Source of the DNA: Streptomyces albipurpureus
GTDB taxonomy: Bacteria > Actinomycetota > Actinomycetes > Streptomycetales > Streptomycetaceae
Direction: 5' to 3'
Length of the DNA: 64,000 nucleotides
NCBI RefSeq assembly: GCF_023701525.1
Contig: NZ_JAMQAW010000052.1
Coordinates: 1-64,000 of the forward strand
Below, in pieces: positions 53,428 through 59,919 of this stretch. The notes under the pieces were generated by a model. The model saw nothing but the letters and a program-made list of their open reading frames with translations. It searched no databases and was not told where the DNA came from. A program made the position numbers and the translations under genes. How positions within the stretch are numbered: the stretch's first letter is position 1; the number at the start of each line of letters is the position of its first letter.

Positions 53428-53654
53428 CTCGCCGCGAGTCGGGTTGGGGCGCCGGTCGGGGCGGGGCGCTCGACCAACCGGTACTACTCGTCCGTATTAC
53501 CCGATTACGGGACCGCTCACCATATGGGGGCAGCAGGTGGGGGAATGGTGGGGCGGAGGGGTGGGGAATCGGCCTCCGCGTCACCTCGCGGTGTGGGCGC
53601 CAGCGGTCCCGGAGCTGGTCGGCCAGGACCCGCACCACGGGTGTGCCAGGCTGG

Positions 53655-53993
53655 TCATCCCTCGCCAGCGGAACCCGGCAGGCTCCTGGCCACCAGGTGC
53701 CGAAGCCGGTCATCGAGCAGCTTCTCCCCGTCCGGGGTGATGGTGGCCAACGCGACCATGCTGGTCACGATGACATCGCACAGCTCCTTCTCCACGTCCT
53801 GCCAGGTGTGGCTGAATCCTTTACGGGGATTGGCGCCCAACGCGCCGTGCAGGGCCTGTGCGACCTCGCCGTACTCCTCACCGATCTTGAGCACCCGCAG
53901 CAGCTTGACGTCTCCCGCCTCAGCCACGACGGCTTCCCTGTCCAGCCAGTCCTTCAACAGCTCCACCCGGGCCCAGGTGGTGTTCGCTTCCAT
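53655..53993 (-). CDS. MazG-like nucleotide pyrophosphohydrolase
   Basis: This 112-residue protein has the all-alpha NTP-pyrophosphatase pattern: an EExxE-type motif (Glu39, 40, 43 in KIGEEYGEVAQAL) followed 30 residues on by KELCD with Glu70 and Asp73, which together bind magnesium. The ATG at 53993 has AAGGAG six bases upstream; the longer open frame to 54047 is not real. It lies 31 bases downstream of the truncated nuclease gene and probably belonged to its operon. A role in cleaning non-canonical nucleotides is typical for the fold. Confidence 0.85.
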   Translation of the reverse strand: MEANTTWARVELLKDWLDREAVVAEAGDVKLLRVLKIGEEYGEVAQALHGALGANPRKGFSHTWQDVEKELCDVIVTSMVALATITPDGEKLLDDRLRHLVARSLPGSAGEG

Positions 53994-54024
53994 ATCGGTC
54001 TCCTTCTGTCTTCGCTGGCGGGGG

Positions 54025-54300
54025 TCAGAAAAGGGCAGGCACGGCACGGACCGGGTCGGTCACGGACAGCGGCTCCGTGGCGTCGCGGTCGAGCGCCAAG
54101 GTCAGGGCCGAATGGTCCGTGAGTCGATCGGGTCCGATCCGGGGCTCGTGCACGTGCTGGCAGTTGCGCACGCGATCCTTGAGCGGAGCGGATACATGGG
54201 CGTGGTCGTAGCGATAGCCGTCCCCGGTGCGTCCCACCCATGAGTACTCCAGGGTGTTCGGGGAGAGCAGACGGAACGCATCGACGTAGCGGCCCGTCCT
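54025..54300 (-). pseudogene. 3' remnant of an endonuclease/exonuclease/phosphatase family gene
   Basis: Reading from 54300, the frame translates as RTGRYVDAFRLL..., then EYSWVGRTGDGYRYDHAHVS and RLTDHSALTL near the end. These match the C-terminal end of the endonuclease/exonuclease/phosphatase family, where the DH of SDH/TDHSAL is catalytic. The frame is closed upstream by the TAG of the next gene at 54301-54303, so the N-terminal two thirds, with the other catalytic residues, are missing. A GTG at 54237 could still start a 70-residue piece, without an obvious ribosome binding site. Confidence 0.75.
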
Positions 54301-55134
54301 CTACTGACGACGCCCACGCCACGCCAGGAACCCGGCGTAGTCGTCTAGTGCCGGTGTCCTCTCTCGCTCAGGCTCACGTACGTGGTAGCCGGCTGCGGTC
54401 AGCCCCCGCCGCACACGGTCGATCCCCCCTCGCCAGTGCTCCCCCGCCGCTGCCGGGACCGCGCCGTCCGGATGACGCAGAAACGCGGGGGCTGGCCGCC
54501 ACAGGACCCGGACACACAACTCGGCGTACGGAGGCCATAGGACCGCCAGTGCCTGTTGCGCCATCAGGGTCCCGTGGGGCTGAGCCCACTGGCTCTGCGT
54601 CTGGCTGAGCACCGCTTGCACCATGCGCAAGGGATCACGCTCCGGGTATACGTAGGCGGGCTGGCCGAGGTGCGGGCGAGCCGGCTCCGATCCCTCCCAC
54701 GCGCACGGGGGTGGCCACAACTCATCGTGGTCCTGGCGCCACACCAGGATGTCTTCATTCGCATGGAGGCTGGGCACCCTCTGCGGGCCGGTGATCTCGG
54801 CCTGATATCCCAGCGTCCGCAAGGACTCGCAGAGCGATTTCGTACGCGCCTTCCAGTGCTCTTCGGCACCGGTCGGTGTCAGACCGGTTCTAGTGTCTCG
54901 GCGCCAGGTCCTATCGGGATACCAGCGCACGACGACACATCGAGTCGCACCGGGCGGCCACGCTTCTTCGGGTGCGGAGAGCACCTGGCACCAACCAAGC
55001 CCATCGGGCAGCGTGCGATAGGAAATGCCGCCTCGGACGGCCGAGGAGGGAGTCAATCCAAGATCCCGGAGAATCCGCTCCACCTCGATGGTGTCCAGGA
55101 GACGATTTCGGCGGAGCGCGTCTGGTCGGGTCAT
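54301..55134 (-). CDS. Unknown protein with internal duplication, 277 aa
   Basis: This protein is of no family that I recognise. It is soluble, Trp- and Arg-rich, with no signal peptide. It seems to contain two related halves: residues about 65-134 (CVVVRWYP...EEHWKAR...LRTLGYQ...LVWRQ) and about 206-274 (LCVRVLWRP...GEHWRGG...LTAAGYHV...LAWRGR). The ATG at 55134 has GGGAA upstream; an in-frame ATG at 55164 is less likely. Its TAG stop lies exactly at the junction with the truncated nuclease gene. It is the last gene of a four-gene accessory unit. Confidence 0.7.
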   Translation of the reverse strand: MTRPDALRRNRLLDTIEVERILRDLGLTPSSAVRGGISYRTLPDGLGWCQVLSAPEEAWPPGATRCVVVRWYPDRTWRRDTRTGLTPTGAEEHWKARTKSLCESLRTLGYQAEITGPQRVPSLHANEDILVWRQDHDELWPPPCAWEGSEPARPHLGQPAYVYPERDPLRMVQAVLSQTQSQWAQPHGTLMAQQALAVLWPPYAELCVRVLWRPAPAFLRHPDGAVPAAAGEHWRGGIDRVRRGLTAAGYHVREPERERTPALDDYAGFLAWRGRRQ

Positions 55135-55174
55135 AAGGTTCCCGTCGGGAATGCAAAGGGACATCGGCGTCTAC

Positions 55175-55315
55175 TCATTGACTGGTCACGCTGTACGCGA
55201 GCACGGTCATCCATCCGGCGACGACCGCTACGCACAGGGCCTGACGTATCCGCTCGGCCTTCTTGGCAAGGGGGCGTTTCCCTAGCTCGCCATATGCCGC
55301 CTGAGGACGTCGCAA
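55175..55315 (-). CDS. Small predicted membrane protein with TTG start, 46 aa
   Basis: The TTG at 55315 has a very good ribosome binding site (AAGGAG, six bases upstream). The product starts LRRPQAAYGELGKRPLA, is strongly basic, and then has one hydrophobic segment (ALCVAVVAGWMTVLAYSV) close to its C-terminus, so it is probably a tail-anchored or single-pass protein with its basic part in the cytoplasm. It lies 45 bases after the 156-residue gene and 40 bases before the 277-residue gene, on the same strand. I do not recognise a family. Confidence 0.5.
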   Translation of the reverse strand: MRRPQAAYGELGKRPLAKKAERIRQALCVAVVAGWMTVLAYSVTSQ

Positions 55316-55360
55316 CCGGCTCTCCTTAACTGTTCAGCGCAAGATTTGGCGGTGGCGCAT

Positions 55361-55831
55361 TCAGCGCCGTGAGAGGAATCCGGGTCGACGTTTCGGTGGC
55401 TGTGCACGCGGAGGACCAAATGCGCTCTGGTCAGCGCGGACGGGGAGGACCGTGGGCACCAAACCCAGCACATATCGGCCGGACCAGTCAGATGCAACGA
55501 GTGTGAACGGCTGGCCTGCCTTGAGCCTTTCGAAGTCGTTGTATCGACGGCGCTCGTCGTTGACCCACATCCGCAATTGGGTCGGCGCATCACCAAGATC
55601 AAGGGCGAGTTGGGGCTCTATGGCTACGCAGATCAAGGCGGCCGACCAGGGCACATCGGGGTCAGGATCAAGCCCGTTGGCGATCCGGACCGCCTGGACG
55701 CACAACCACCGCATGGCCCGCCCCGCGTAGGGGGTCGCGAACGTGCCGAGTACGACCCGAGGAGGTGAAGAATCAGGCGACTCCACCTCGGCCACGGCCT
55801 GGGCCCAATACGCGAGCCGGCCGGAGGTCAC
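55361..55831 (-). CDS. Unknown protein of the accessory module, 156 aa
   Basis: The GTG at 55831 is preceded by GGAGG with a six-base spacer and overlaps the stop of the HATPase gene as GTGA, so the two are translationally coupled. The protein starts TSGRLAYWAQAVAEVE, contains Trp-rich helical segments and ends in a basic Pro/Arg tail (GPPRAQPPKRRPGFLSRR). No membrane segment, Cys cluster or known catalytic motif is seen. The coupling suggests that it works with the HATPase protein. Confidence 0.7.
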   Translation of the reverse strand: MTSGRLAYWAQAVAEVESPDSSPPRVVLGTFATPYAGRAMRWLCVQAVRIANGLDPDPDVPWSAALICVAIEPQLALDLGDAPTQLRMWVNDERRRYNDFERLKAGQPFTLVASDWSGRYVLGLVPTVLPVRADQSAFGPPRAQPPKRRPGFLSRR

Positions 55832-56316
55832 CGACCGCCTCCAAGCGCAAAGACACACCAAGTGCGGTTAAGCGAGCCGTCCTCAACAACCCCCCAGCTA
55901 TCTGCGTAGGCGTCCACCAGCATCAGCCCACGACCGCTCTCGTCTAGTAGATCTACTTCACGCGGGCATAACGGCATCTGCTGGCGGCCCGTGCTGCTAC
56001 TCACCTCGATATGGATCTGGGTGTTCGTACACCACATGCGCACCCCGACGTTGCCCTCCCCGTGGAGGAACGCGTTCGTGACCAGCTCGGAGAGGCACAG
56101 GCTGACGGCATCACCGAAGGATGAGAAGCCCCACAGGCTCGCGTGAGCACGGCCGAGGCGGCGGATCTGACCGGGCCTTTGTCTGTCCTCCGGCGTCATG
56201 GGGTGACCAGGCCGAGTACTAGGGCGCAGGCAGAGAGAGAAGATGGGCGCGCCCTTCGGCGGGGACGGAGCGTCGCGGACGGTAAGTGTGGTCTGACGAG
56301 ACGTTGAGGGCGACAT
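55828..56316 (-). CDS. HATPase-domain protein (anti-sigma-factor-kinase-like)
   Basis: This 162-residue protein has a single RsbW/SpoIIAB-like ATP-binding fold. The N box is SELVTNAFLHG (Asn81) and the G1 box is DESGRGLMLVD (125-135), both intact, so ATP binding is likely. Streptomyces has dozens of such proteins, many next to XRE regulators. The ATG has GGAGAG upstream. It is first in the four-gene module and divergent from the XRE-TPR regulator. It may act by binding a partner or as a kinase; which one cannot be told. Confidence 0.88.
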   Translation of the reverse strand: MSPSTSRQTTLTVRDAPSPPKGAPIFSLCLRPSTRPGHPMTPEDRQRPGQIRRLGRAHASLWGFSSFGDAVSLCLSELVTNAFLHGEGNVGVRMWCTNTQIHIEVSSSTGRQQMPLCPREVDLLDESGRGLMLVDAYADSWGVVEDGSLNRTWCVFALGGGR

Positions 56317-56691
56317 GAGGGTGTCTCTCCATCAGTCGGGAACGCGCTGGTGGCGCTTGTGCCACGTGATGTTCTCTGCTGGCACGGTCCGTATCCGAAC
56401 GGCCACCCATGCGTTTCAGATGGCTCAGAGGAGGTGGTTCCTGGGCCGCAGGTCAGCTCAGATCCGGAGGTCATACGACGGTCTGTTGCCCAGAATGGTC
56501 AGTCGGGCGCCGGAGCTGTCCCGCTCTCCCCGGGCACCCGTCTGTGGTGCTCCTCAAGTCAACCGGTCTGAGTTATGCACTCACAGGTCAGAAGGCACCG
56601 ACTTCGCGCCGGGGAGGCGGACAATTTGACCAACGGACGGGTGGGTCATAGCTACGGTCAGCGGTACAACTCGCGGCAAGTGGGGTATCCG
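56317..56691. other. Divergent control region of the accessory module
   Basis: These 375 bases separate the HATPase and XRE-TPR genes. A good promoter for the regulator lies at 56626-56654. The left part must hold the promoter for the HATPase unit, which I could not place. No clear operator repeat was found by eye. Confidence 0.55.
56626..56654 (+). promoter_or_regulatory. Candidate housekeeping promoter of the XRE-TPR gene
   Basis: TTGACC (56626-56631) and TAGCTA (56649-56654) are spaced by exactly 17 bases, a close fit to the HrdB-type promoter. The -10 lies 37 bases upstream of the chosen ATG. Confidence 0.5.
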
Positions 56692-57921
56692 ATGAGCAGT
56701 CCGGCGAACCGTCAACTTAGTCTTCTGATGCAGGAGTTCGGCTATACGCAAGAAAGCCTGGCCGAGAGGATCAATGAAACAGCAGCTCTCTTCTGCGGTG
56801 GTGGTCTTCAACCTTGCACGGACCGGAACATCCGACGCTGGCTGTCGGGCCAGGTCCGCTGGCCGCACGCGCGCTATCTTGTCGCACTGGAACACATTTT
56901 CGGGCGCCCAGCCCATGAGATCGGCTTTGTGCCGAGAGGAAAGAGCAGCGTGGTGCCAAAACCGCCCGCGCCGCTCGAATCGGAGGAGGACCCAGTGTTG
57001 CGTCGCCGGTTCGTCACCGCTTCCACAGCCGCAACGTTCGCTACCACCCTCGGAATCGACGAAACACCACAGCAGGGCCGCATCTCCATGGGCGATGTAG
57101 GCCGCGTGAACGAGCGGATCGATCGGCTCGAAGCCGAGTTCTTTGCCATCGGCGGCAGCCCTCTCGTTGAAGTCGCAGTTGCCTACATCACGCGGCTACG
57201 AGCCGCGCTCGATGGCTGCTCCTACAGCGACCGGGTCGAAAAGGAACTGCTCAAGTCGATCAGCAGCCTGTACTGCAAAGCCGGATGGGGAGCCTGGGAC
57301 AGCGACAACATCGTTCAGGCGTCGCGGATGCACTCCGCTTCCCTACAAAGCGCTCTTGTGGCCGGTGACTCGATTGCCGCTGCGCGCGCGTGGTCGGCCT
57401 TATCCATCCAAGCCCGGCTCGAAGGTCGTCACCGCGAGGCGGTCCAGATCGTAGAGACCGCCCTCAGCGATCGCCGCGCACGGCAGGACCCGTACATCTG
57501 CACTCTCCTGCACGCTCGACTCGCGTGCGGGCACGCCCGCAACCGCGACCGGTCGAAGACAGCGCGAGCCCTGCTCCGCGCCGAGCAAGCCTACGACCGG
57601 GTCCCCGTCGGCGGCCCGCCAGCCGTCTGGCTGAACTTCCTCAACGCGGCGGAAGTGTCAGGGCTCGCGGCACATGCCCAGCGAGAGCTGGGCTCCTACG
57701 ACCACGCAGAAGCCGCTGCCACCCAGGCGCTGGGCCTTCTCCCTCCCGCGTTGCGTCGCAGCAGGGCCTACATCCAGGTGCAGTTGGCTGAGCTTCAGGT
57801 GCTCAACAGCGAGCGCGAAGGCGCTGCCGCGACCCTTGCCGAGATCGAGACACCCTCTCTCGTCATTCCTCGCCTCACCGGGCGGATCACAGCTGTGCGG
57901 CGAATCGTCGCAGCCGCCTAG
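56692..57921 (+). CDS. XRE-family regulator with TPR-like C-terminus
   Basis: This 409-residue protein has a helix-turn-helix at its N-terminus (LSLLMQEFGYTQESLAERI, then DRNIRRWLSGQVRWPHARYL). A Ser/Thr/Ala linker with RRRFVTAS follows at about 100. A long helical region of repeated 34-40-residue units (about 155-400) resembles TPR repeats. Such proteins often control the genes next to them. I chose the ATG at 56692, preceded by GTGGGG; an upstream frame reaches 56575 but crosses the promoter. It is divergent from the HATPase gene, so regulation of that module is the simplest guess. Confidence 0.85.
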   Translation: MSSPANRQLSLLMQEFGYTQESLAERINETAALFCGGGLQPCTDRNIRRWLSGQVRWPHARYLVALEHIFGRPAHEIGFVPRGKSSVVPKPPAPLESEEDPVLRRRFVTASTAATFATTLGIDETPQQGRISMGDVGRVNERIDRLEAEFFAIGGSPLVEVAVAYITRLRAALDGCSYSDRVEKELLKSISSLYCKAGWGAWDSDNIVQASRMHSASLQSALVAGDSIAAARAWSALSIQARLEGRHREAVQIVETALSDRRARQDPYICTLLHARLACGHARNRDRSKTARALLRAEQAYDRVPVGGPPAVWLNFLNAAEVSGLAAHAQRELGSYDHAEAAATQALGLLPPALRRSRAYIQVQLAELQVLNSEREGAAATLAEIETPSLVIPRLTGRITAVRRIVAAA

Positions 57922-58042
57922 GACGGGCCGGTTCGTGACTGCCAGCATCAGCAACCAGTAGGCCAGGAGCAGGCCGCCGAACTGCCGTCCAGGTAAATGG
58001 AGTACGCCTACGCCAAGGGGGTGTACGCCACGAGATAGCGGC

Positions 58043-58342
58043 TCATCCCGCGCTCCGGTACTCGTCGTCATCGAGATCCTCGGCGAAGGTGACGCCCGAC
58101 AGGTCTCCGGACCGAATCCGTTCCACCAGGGCCCGCTCAGCGTCGTCGTGCTCGGTGGGAATGTTCATCGCCCAGCGGACCAACACCGTGCGTAGCTCGT
58201 CAGCCGCTGCGTTCTCGATCTCAGCCGTGAACGCAGCGCGCTCCTCCTCTGGCAGTGCTTCCCGGACGCCGCGAATCGTGGCAGGCAGCCGCACGGTCCC
58301 GGCCGTCATATACATCGCCAAGTGATGACCTGTATGGGCCAT
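58043..58342 (-). CDS. Small acidic protein, possibly antitoxin-like (DUF6247 type)
   Basis: This 99-residue protein has a central charged helical part (LPATIRGVREALPEEERAAFTAEIENAAADELRTVLVRWA) and an acidic tail (FAEDLDDDEYRSAG). It resembles the DUF6247 group, which I recall as lying upstream of RelE/ParE-like toxin genes. The ATG at 58342 has GAAGGGA upstream. The stop overlaps a start codon as ATGA, but the frame that starts there closes after 12 codons, so any partner gene is broken. The family call is tentative. Confidence 0.6.
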   Translation of the reverse strand: MAHTGHHLAMYMTAGTVRLPATIRGVREALPEEERAAFTAEIENAAADELRTVLVRWAMNIPTEHDDAERALVERIRSGDLSGVTFAEDLDDDEYRSAG

Positions 58343-58620
58343 TTGATTCCCTTCCGCAGATACGGGCCCCACTCCCGGTCATCGTAGGAGGACGGCACTC
58401 AGGACATGTGGTCCCACCAGCCGGCGCGTGGGGCCAACCGAGGGCGTGGGGAGCGCGTCGGGCACTCCCGCGTTCGGAGTGAGTGGGACCTCGACCGTAC
58501 TGTCGAGTTTCGCCGGGAACGAGCACCTGCCCGTTGCTCGATCCTCAGCGTCCAGGCAGAGGTACGTCTGGGCGACGGACTGATGGCCCGTTCACGACGT
58601 AGCGCGCTTCGGGCAAGGGC

Positions 58621-59835
58621 CTATCGGCCTGCCCGTCCAGGCCCAGTGGGATGGCCGGATGCGGCGGACAAGATCACGTCCACCAGCCTGTCCGCCGCAT
58701 CCGGCCGTCCGTGTGCCCGGGCCCGCTCCGCCATGGCGACACGCCGCACGGGGTCCGTCAGGAGCGGACCGGCCGCTGCGCGCAAGCTGTCGGCTGTGAC
58801 CTCACCCAGCAGAGCAACGGCCGCGCCGCTCTCCTCCAGGTGCCGGGCGTTGTGCGCCTGCTCGTTCCCGGCCGAGGAGGCAAGCGGGATGAACACCGCG
58901 GGCTTGCCAAGGGCGGTCAGCTCCGCCAGCGTGCCCGCCCCGCTTCGCGAGATCACGACGTCTGCCAGCGCCAGGACGTCAGGAAGCTCCGGGCCGACGA
59001 ACCCGGTCAGGTGGTACCGGCGGGACAACGCGGGGGAAAGTGCGGCGGCCTGCTTCCGCAGGCTTTCGACATGTGCCGGCCCGCACTGGTGGATCACGTT
59101 CGCACGCTCCAACAGCCAGGGGAGCGCATCCCGCACAACATCGTTGATCTGCTGAGACCCTTGGGCGCCCCCAGTGACGTACACCGTTGGCACGTTCCGG
59201 TCGAAGCCGCGCAGCTCCAGCGTCTCGATCGCTTTGCTCGCGTGCCCGGCCAGTACCTCGGGGCGAATCGGATTGCCCGTCACCACCGCCATCTCCCGTA
59301 CCGACTCGGGCAGGAGCGGCAGAGACGACTCGGACGAGAGGGCGATGTACGTCGCCGAGCCGGAGAGTTTCCGGTTGGCCAGGCCCAGGCGCACGGTCTG
59401 CTCGTGCAACACCAGCGGGCGGCGGCACATACGGGCAGCCAGACCGGCGGGAACAGCGACATACCCGCCGGTGGCGAGTACGACATCCGGCTGGAAGCCA
59501 GCGATGATCCTCCGGGCCTGAGCCACACCGAGCGGCACGCGCGCCATGTCCCGCACATTCGCCGGCGACACCAATTTGAGCGGATTCGCCGAACGGCGGA
59601 TCTTGCCCGTCGCGACCGTGACGAACGCGACGCCCTCGGCCGGGGCAACTCGTGCCTCCAGGCCGTCCTGCGTACCGATCCACAGCGCGTCCAACGCTCG
59701 GCCGTTCGCCGCGAGTCGGGCCTGTAGCGTCCGGATCGCAGTCAAGGCCGGATAAGTGTGGCCGCCGGTCCCTCCCCCAGTGACGATCAGGCGGAAGGCA
59801 CTTGAGGGATGGGAAGCGCTGTTCACCCCCCGCAC
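58621..59835 (-). CDS. MurG-type UDP-GlcNAc transferase paralogue
   Basis: This 404-residue GT-B glycosyltransferase resembles MurG, which adds GlcNAc to lipid I. It has the MurG N-terminal loop TGGGTGGHTYPA, ATGGYVAVPA, LHEQTVRLGLANR, TGGAQGSQQIND and ISRSGAGTLAEL, all in the usual order, so catalysis is likely. It is not in a division/cell-wall cluster, so this should be a second copy beside the housekeeping murG. The start is uncertain: GTG at 59835 or 59826, neither with a good ribosome binding site. Only 26 bases separate it from the next hairpin. Confidence 0.85.
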   Translation of the reverse strand: MRGVNSASHPSSAFRLIVTGGGTGGHTYPALTAIRTLQARLAANGRALDALWIGTQDGLEARVAPAEGVAFVTVATGKIRRSANPLKLVSPANVRDMARVPLGVAQARRIIAGFQPDVVLATGGYVAVPAGLAARMCRRPLVLHEQTVRLGLANRKLSGSATYIALSSESSLPLLPESVREMAVVTGNPIRPEVLAGHASKAIETLELRGFDRNVPTVYVTGGAQGSQQINDVVRDALPWLLERANVIHQCGPAHVESLRKQAAALSPALSRRYHLTGFVGPELPDVLALADVVISRSGAGTLAELTALGKPAVFIPLASSAGNEQAHNARHLEESGAAVALLGEVTADSLRAAAGPLLTDPVRRVAMAERARAHGRPDAADRLVDVILSAASGHPTGPGRAGR

Positions 59836-59861
59836 ATTACTGGCGGGCGCGCATAGAGGAA

Positions 59862-59900
59862 AACGGCCGGAGCCCCCGCACAGTGTGGGCTCCGGCCGTT
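59862..59900 (-). terminator. Perfect 14-bp terminator of the aldehyde dehydrogenase gene
   Basis: Arms 59862-59875 and 59887-59900 are perfect complements with an 11-base loop, followed on the minus strand by TTTTCC. It starts 20 bases past the stop. It separates core genes on the right from the accessory stretch on the left. Confidence 0.8.
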
Positions 59901-59919
59901 GGTTTGTACTCGCGGGAAA

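Follow-up and report, generated by a model that had tools for sequence, protein, structure and literature searches.

Gene content of the locus

The stretch of Streptomyces albipurpureus DNA analyzed here (the first 64,000 nucleotides of contig NZ_JAMQAW010000052.1, hereafter the window) carries at 54301–57921 an XRE-TPR regulator gene divergent to four minus-strand genes, which encode a HATPase and the proteins that we call P166, P46 and P287. An original prediction, made from the sequence alone, had presented these genes as an undescribed module that could be either a signalling switch or a phage defence device. All five are open frames at the positions it gave, as judged by a check of the open reading frames of the 64-kb window, and two further frames, an EEP-family remnant and a MazG-like gene, extend the string past its limits (Table 1). 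We consider it moderately probable that the locus is an AbaA/WhiJ-like regulatory cassette in which an NsdA-family regulator replaces WhiJ, and that it once stood before an operon of radical SAM and nucleotide enzymes and is now orphaned.

The locus is, as had been noted, less GC-rich than its surroundings (64.9% versus 69.5% in the remainder of 48–64 kb), a level reached by about 2.5% of same-sized window stretches, and third-position GC is 0.68–0.74 in the cassette genes against 0.90–0.94 in the flanking dxr, ACAD and ALDH genes. A simple coding score overlooks P166 and most of P287; despite this, similarity and ratios of nonsynonymous to synonymous substitution (dN/dS) of 0.24–0.34 indicate that both are genes. 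The ratio is 0.24 for the HATPase and for P166 (window versus the chromosomal copy of Streptomyces sp. NBC_00690) and 0.34 for P287 (window versus the NBC_00690 plasmid copy); since dS is at least 1.1 these values are rough, they average over history, and for P46 the comparison covers 42 codons only.

Table 1. Features of the locus and of the adjoining cargo relics
Feature	Position	Strand	Basis and remarks
XRE-TPR regulator, NsdA family	56575..57921	+	NCBIfam NF053720, 239.2 bits versus curated cut-off 75; one TTA codon; likely start ATG 56692
Upstream region common to regulator and HATPase operon, proposed operator	56317..56691	.	position only
HATPase (HATPase_c_2), AbaA-like	55828..56316	-	PF13581, 39 bits versus cut-off 27.4; one TTA codon
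P166, family-less protein, HATPase-coupled	55361..55831	-	no family match; multi-copy family; 156 residues from GTG 55831
P46, short one-helix peptide	55175..55315	-	similar tails in two NBC_00690 loci; hydrophobic segment; stops 10 bp before P287
P287, family-less protein, two ~95-residue repeats	54301..55164	-	no family match; repeat comparison; 277 residues from inner ATG
3' remnant of EEP-family (exonuclease III-like) gene, cargo relic	54030..54300	-	64% identity to NBC_00690 EEP protein
MazG-like gene, last of former cargo	53655..54047	-	66% identity to NBC_00690 MazG-like protein; PF03819, 15.6 bits versus cut-off 22

The regulator and the HATPase

By the NF053720 model the regulator is an NsdA-family protein, but it is neither NsdA nor NsdB proper, with 41.2 bits (equivalog cut-off 830) and 44.4 bits (equivalog cut-off 700), respectively. 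Because its conserved part starts at 56683, the ATG at 56692 is the likelier start. Our own models for XRE-DUF5753 (WhiJ-type) regulators and for DUF397 (BldB-like) partners matched nothing in the window, so that the predicted lack of a DUF397 partner stands. The HATPase passes the PF13581 cut-off, and an 11-protein alignment shows that it retains the Asn box and the GRGL motif (G2 box); the identities first proposed for both proteins are thereby confirmed.

Both genes contain a TTA codon (codon 116 in the HATPase gene and codon 237, counted from ATG 56692, in the regulator gene), which suggests that the cassette depends on bldA. TTA occurs in 9 of 17 XRE-TPR genes compared with 14 of the 175 other genes in those loci, an excess to be read with the lower GC of the XRE-TPR genes, which raises chance occurrence. 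General family scans identified no integrase among seven window proteins, in agreement with the original prediction, no dedicated integrase search having been made. An integrase candidate suspected by eye in another locus (L221) was supported by neither Pfam nor NCBIfam.

P166 is shared among XRE loci

P166, P46 and P287 had been called unrecognised, and none of them scores above cut-off in Pfam, NCBIfam or PADLOC. The start of P166, a GTG, shares 4 bases with the end of the HATPase gene, in line with the proposed coupling. P166 has nine matches in the source genome and at least one in 105 of 199 genus genomes; in these and the other genome searches only the best candidates per genome were scored, and absences may be overstated. 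In the source genome and NBC_00690, all ten intact copies (fragments L083 and L084 excluded) lie opposite an XRE gene, nine of the TPR type and one of the DUF5753 type with DUF397, and six of these sites also have a HATPase gene.

A broader set of P166 loci, 29 stretches of ~3.4 kb, gave an XRE gene in 17 (6 TPR, 11 DUF5753), DUF397 in seven and a HATPase in three. Control loci gave 0 of 20 for each of XRE, DUF397, HATPase and a ~73-residue conserved gene; one of these controls is the ACAD locus of the window itself (L195), where P287 is visible and XRE is not. In 15 of the 29 loci the gene for this ~73-residue protein stands between the XRE gene and P166 (L121-L043 type, e.g. L132:9690-9908). 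Among nine further P166 loci from viral and genome collections, DUF397 and XRE-DUF5753 adjoin P166 in three (L128; L132 from S. pyxinicus; L135 from S. albidoflavus). L131 has a HATPase beside P166 with DUF397 and XRE-DUF5753 ~3.5 kb off, L136 has an XRE-TPR gene near P166, and L129, L130, L133 and L134 have neither DUF397 nor XRE. Judged by these neighborhoods, P166 is a shared component of XRE loci of both the NsdA and the WhiJ type. The likeness to WhiJ/AbaA loci that had been proposed from layout is therefore upheld by homology, through the P166 relatives in XRE-DUF5753/DUF397 loci and through one locus (L158) where P287 and a HATPase lie opposite XRE-DUF5753/DUF397.

P166 was also considered as a DUF6415 protein and rejected (no Pfam match at E 1; hhalign probability 0.2). 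Its predicted fold has a mean confidence score (pLDDT) of 75.8 and could not be interpreted: no PDB or viral match was found at E 0.001, and the best VIA-align hit (Z 4.6) is a ribosomal protein. Streptomyces phages SF1 and SF3 (hits H9-H12) encode a distant P166 relative (32% identity, E 1e-3).

P46 and P287

P46 has a single hydrophobic segment within its last ~26 residues, a tail that is similar in two NBC_00690 loci. Since this part holds the segment and the similarity, the real peptide may be shorter than 46 residues; of the membrane protein originally proposed, the hydrophobic segment stands and the length is in doubt.

The duplication seen earlier in the 277-residue protein P287 is borne out by a comparison of the profile of repeat 1 with repeat 2 (probability 99.3, E 1e-20, 95 columns). 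A structure model from the single sequence has a pLDDT of 49.1. P287 is rare: a sequence search found it in 9 of 199 genus genomes and a profile search in 10 of 392. Sixteen intact P287 loci were opened, leaving out fragments L076, L083, L085, L159 and L163 and plasmid hit H5; a HATPase gene is present in 12, and a DUF6415 gene in six with one additional weak match. Eleven regulators of P287 loci, that of the window and ten others, were scored with NCBIfam (those of L095, L096, L161, L224 and L225 lie outside this set), and eight exceed the NsdA cut-off. The L158 regulator matches the Sco1979 family below cut-off, and those of L157 and L162 pass none. No description of P166 or P287 was found in the literature searched, the scope of which left out preprints, most subscription papers and supplements.

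The genes proposed as a module do co-occur elsewhere, and their three unrecognised proteins match no known unrelated family. Outside the window, an intact complete set including P166 and P287 was seen only on the NBC_00690 plasmid. The notion of an undescribed four-gene module calls for revision: the genes form a mosaic front end to cargo operons.

Cargo in relatives and its probable loss from the window

The plasmid relatives of the window locus are from Streptomyces. On the NBC_00690 linear plasmid (NZ_CP109010, L095), P287 is followed by radical SAM, dTMP kinase, EEP and MazG-like genes. In S. coelicoflavus the corresponding genes encode thymidylate synthase, NDK, a radical SAM protein and an exonuclease; the first two of these are also encoded in genome G093 (L160), L155 has a radical SAM protein, and four other plasmids carry glycosyltransferase, aldolase, MurA-like and exonuclease genes. 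Beyond P287, L158 encodes an ATP-grasp peptide maturase, which at 345 bits stays under its cut-off of 350, and the accompanying methyltransferase (259 of 380 bits). L079, which has P166 and lacks P287, carries an ATP-grasp precursor of a ribosomally synthesized and post-translationally modified peptide, a maturase and a methyltransferase downstream of its XRE gene, all above cut-offs. To judge from these gene orders, P287 marks cargo-bearing cassettes.

Two further observations concern neighbors of such cassettes. XRE/HATPase cassettes adjoin ATP-grasp peptide (graspetide-type) genes in L079, L080 and L158, L080 being assigned from its gene list, and in L153 (9270-10052) P287 lies next to roadblock, DUF742 and ATP-binding genes, a conservon-like set.

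In the window, the frame directly after P287 corresponds to residues 181–267 of the 268 of the plasmid EEP protein (L095:14108-14914), and is followed by the MazG-like gene, whose plasmid counterpart stands at the operon end. On the plasmid, ~4.8 kb separate the P287 end from the matching EEP position. The simplest reading, measured against that plasmid, is that the window lost ~4.8 kb (radical SAM, dTMP kinase and most of the EEP gene) by deletion, and the cassette probably once controlled a small-molecule operon that has since been mostly deleted.

A related locus, bounded by the same genes as in the window, lies on the NBC_00690 chromosome; it comprises HATPase, P166 and P46 together with a distant XRE gene and a P287 copy interrupted by a stop. 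Between the two chromosomes dS is 0.30 and 0.49 for the flanking genes and 1.1–1.75 for HATPase, P166 and P46; the cassettes have probably not descended quietly together with their flanks. The ALDH–ACAD interval measures 6.5 kb in the window (53428–59919) and 150 bp in genome G006, and is filled by other genes in G005, G012, G004 and G003; eight genomes were fetched for this comparison, and ALDH was not found within the stretch in G009, G007 and G011. The interval resembles an insertion site. In the window it also contains a MurG-like glycosyltransferase gene (58621–59835, minus strand; 238.8 bits versus the murG cut-off of 250.25), which is not seen in the gene list of the NBC_00690 chromosomal interval.

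Proposed role and alternative explanations

We propose that the XRE-TPR protein binds within 56317–56691 and controls both its own gene and the divergent HATPase-P166-P46-P287 operon, which would formerly have continued into biosynthetic cargo. The HATPase and its coupled partner P166 would act on the regulator through contact, and P46 could serve as a tether or merely provide translational coupling. The TTA codons would tie the cassette to the bldA developmental tRNA, with a possible effect on development or metabolism, and the ~4.8-kb deletion would leave an orphan switch plus two cargo relics. We favor this regulatory cassette because (i) the regulator is of the NsdA family, every one of the ten intact P166 copies faces an XRE gene, and 17 of 29 P166 loci but 0 of 20 controls contain one; (ii) a HATPase accompanies P287 in 12 of 16 loci, 8 of 11 regulators are NsdA-type, and cargo lies behind P287 in relatives; and (iii) the window retains the EEP remnant and the MazG-like gene, occupies a 6.5-kb interval that is 150 bp elsewhere, and has the TTA codons.

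Several observations weigh against a regulatory cassette. Only two of the 16 P287 loci (the window and the NBC_00690 plasmid) also contain P166, and an XRE gene is not seen in 12 of the 29 P166 loci, seven of which belong to one acidic subfamily that is solitary there. Repeat and promoter scans of 56317–56691 gave nothing convincing as an operator or promoter. Finally, the G1-box Asp is substituted in 4 of the 11 aligned HATPases, including that of the window, which may accordingly act without ATP or be decaying.

This last substitution would also fit a dying relic, i.e. a cassette left functionless by the loss of its cargo, with frames merely not yet broken. We regard such a relic as unlikely, yet as an alternative to be reckoned with: most of the cargo is gone, P287 of the NBC_00690 chromosomal copy carries a stop, and fragments of P166 and P287 lie elsewhere in the source genome (L083, L084, L085), but every frame of the window set is open and the dN/dS ratios are 0.24–0.34, though averaged over history. 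The window copy could be either an orphan switch or such a relic.

A toxin-antitoxin or addiction pair, with P166 or P287 as a toxin restrained by the XRE and HATPase proteins, seems improbable. The available portions of PMC6262351 and PMC10364602 contain the proposal that XRE-DUF397 pairs are type II toxin-antitoxin systems, and the proteins are small and of mosaic distribution; against this, Pfam, NCBIfam and PADLOC scans matched no toxin family, P287 adjoins biosynthetic genes, and the XRE-DUF397 pair Scr1/Scr2 is described, in the text available to us, as an activator of antibiotic production.

We give still less credence to phage defence, one of the two functions originally suggested. The locus occupies a variable interval, and in a scan of the cargo of two relatives the NBC_00690 radical SAM protein is weakly viperin-like (55.9 bits) and the NBC_00690 kinase weakly resembles the PADLOC model VakA (26.8 bits) and PDC-M51B; that scan also showed the S. 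coelicoflavus exonuclease to resemble DEDDh exonucleases listed with CRISPR systems. However, PADLOC matches none of seven window proteins at E 1, the radical SAM protein scores 48 bits on the NCBI viperin model, which requires 180, and is absent from the window, and in 50,697 phage records P287 is unmatched, P166 having a weak match in two phages. A signalling switch seems the better of the two suggestions. That the genes form a chance string, for which the rarity of P166 and P287 together might speak, is scarcely credible given the XRE-facing-(HATPase)-P166 order at 10 sites in two genomes and the 17 of 29 loci versus 0 of 20 controls.

If the regulatory cassette is extended to the genus, P166 and P287 would be plug-in parts of portable control cassettes, in which an XRE-HATPase front end with interchangeable partners (such as P166 or DUF6415) recurs next to unrelated operons for small molecules (radical SAM plus nucleotide enzymes, graspetide-type, MurA-like), and cargo loss would create orphan switches that join the WhiJ/AbaA network. 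We offer this extension tentatively, as possible if doubtful. WhiJ/AbaA/BldB paralogues are abundant in Streptomyces and mostly unexplained, and were the extension true, part of them would be former pathway regulators, the window copy illustrating how a pathway switch could become an orphan regulator. P166, found in NsdA- and WhiJ-type loci, and P287, repeatedly near biosynthetic genes, are concrete proteins to test, and could serve as signposts toward unrecognised small-molecule operons.

Comparison with known systems

Among the nearest known systems, the NBC_00690 linear plasmid locus shares the XRE, HATPase, P166, P287, EEP and MazG-like genes, and differs by STAS and HTH genes in between and by a complete cargo that includes radical SAM and dTMP kinase genes. 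The plasmid loci of S. coelicoflavus, S. anthocyanicus and SYP-A7193 likewise combine a divergent XRE-TPR regulator, a HATPase and a terminal P287 followed by enzymes, but have DUF6415 in the P166 position, and the P166 and DUF6415 profiles show no similarity. Relative to NsdA and NsdB themselves, the window regulator passes the family model and stays far under both equivalog cut-offs. SspH, described in the accessible part of PMC9137472 as a HATPase-only regulator that affects antibiotic production and requires Asn54 and Asp84, is a single-domain HATPase like that of the window, which, in contrast, lacks the G1-box Asp.

As far as PMC10294661 was available, AbaA paralogues are HATPase_c proteins adjoining whiJ and bldB paralogues, WhiJ9 binds a shared intergenic region, and abaA6 overexpression yields a sporulation-deficient strain; in 2013 the function of the HATPase protein encoded at the whiJ locus was described as unknown (PMC4255298, available in part). 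The WhiJ9 operator consensus from the available text of PMC10294661, run as a pattern over 392 genomes, matched 28. Among the loci fetched, a tight triple repeat fitting this operator lies near position 1501, with XRE-DUF5753 and DUF397, in 13 genus genomes (L168, L169, L174, L176, L177, L179, L185, L186, L187, L188, L190, L191, L192). Gene calling yielded a facing frame that encodes a basic protein at nine of these loci and settled on another frame in L168, L177, L190 and L192. This basic protein (e.g. L174:1644-2051), which has no Pfam match, is probably iosA. It shows a weak profile match (16% probability) to the protein preceding the HATPase in some TPR loci; the P166 model matched nothing in the 13 loci, a comparison made by locus and not with the IosA sequence itself.

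Like the WhiJ/AbaA/BldB (DUF397) loci, some of which contain P166 relatives, the window has an XRE regulator opposite a HATPase gene. Unlike them, it has an NsdA-type TPR regulator instead of XRE-DUF5753, shows no DUF397 match, and adds P46, P287 and cargo relics. Since XRE-DUF5753 and DUF397 are two defining features of those loci and neither was found here, we do not class the locus among them, but it shares parts with WhiJ/AbaA loci and probably works like them.

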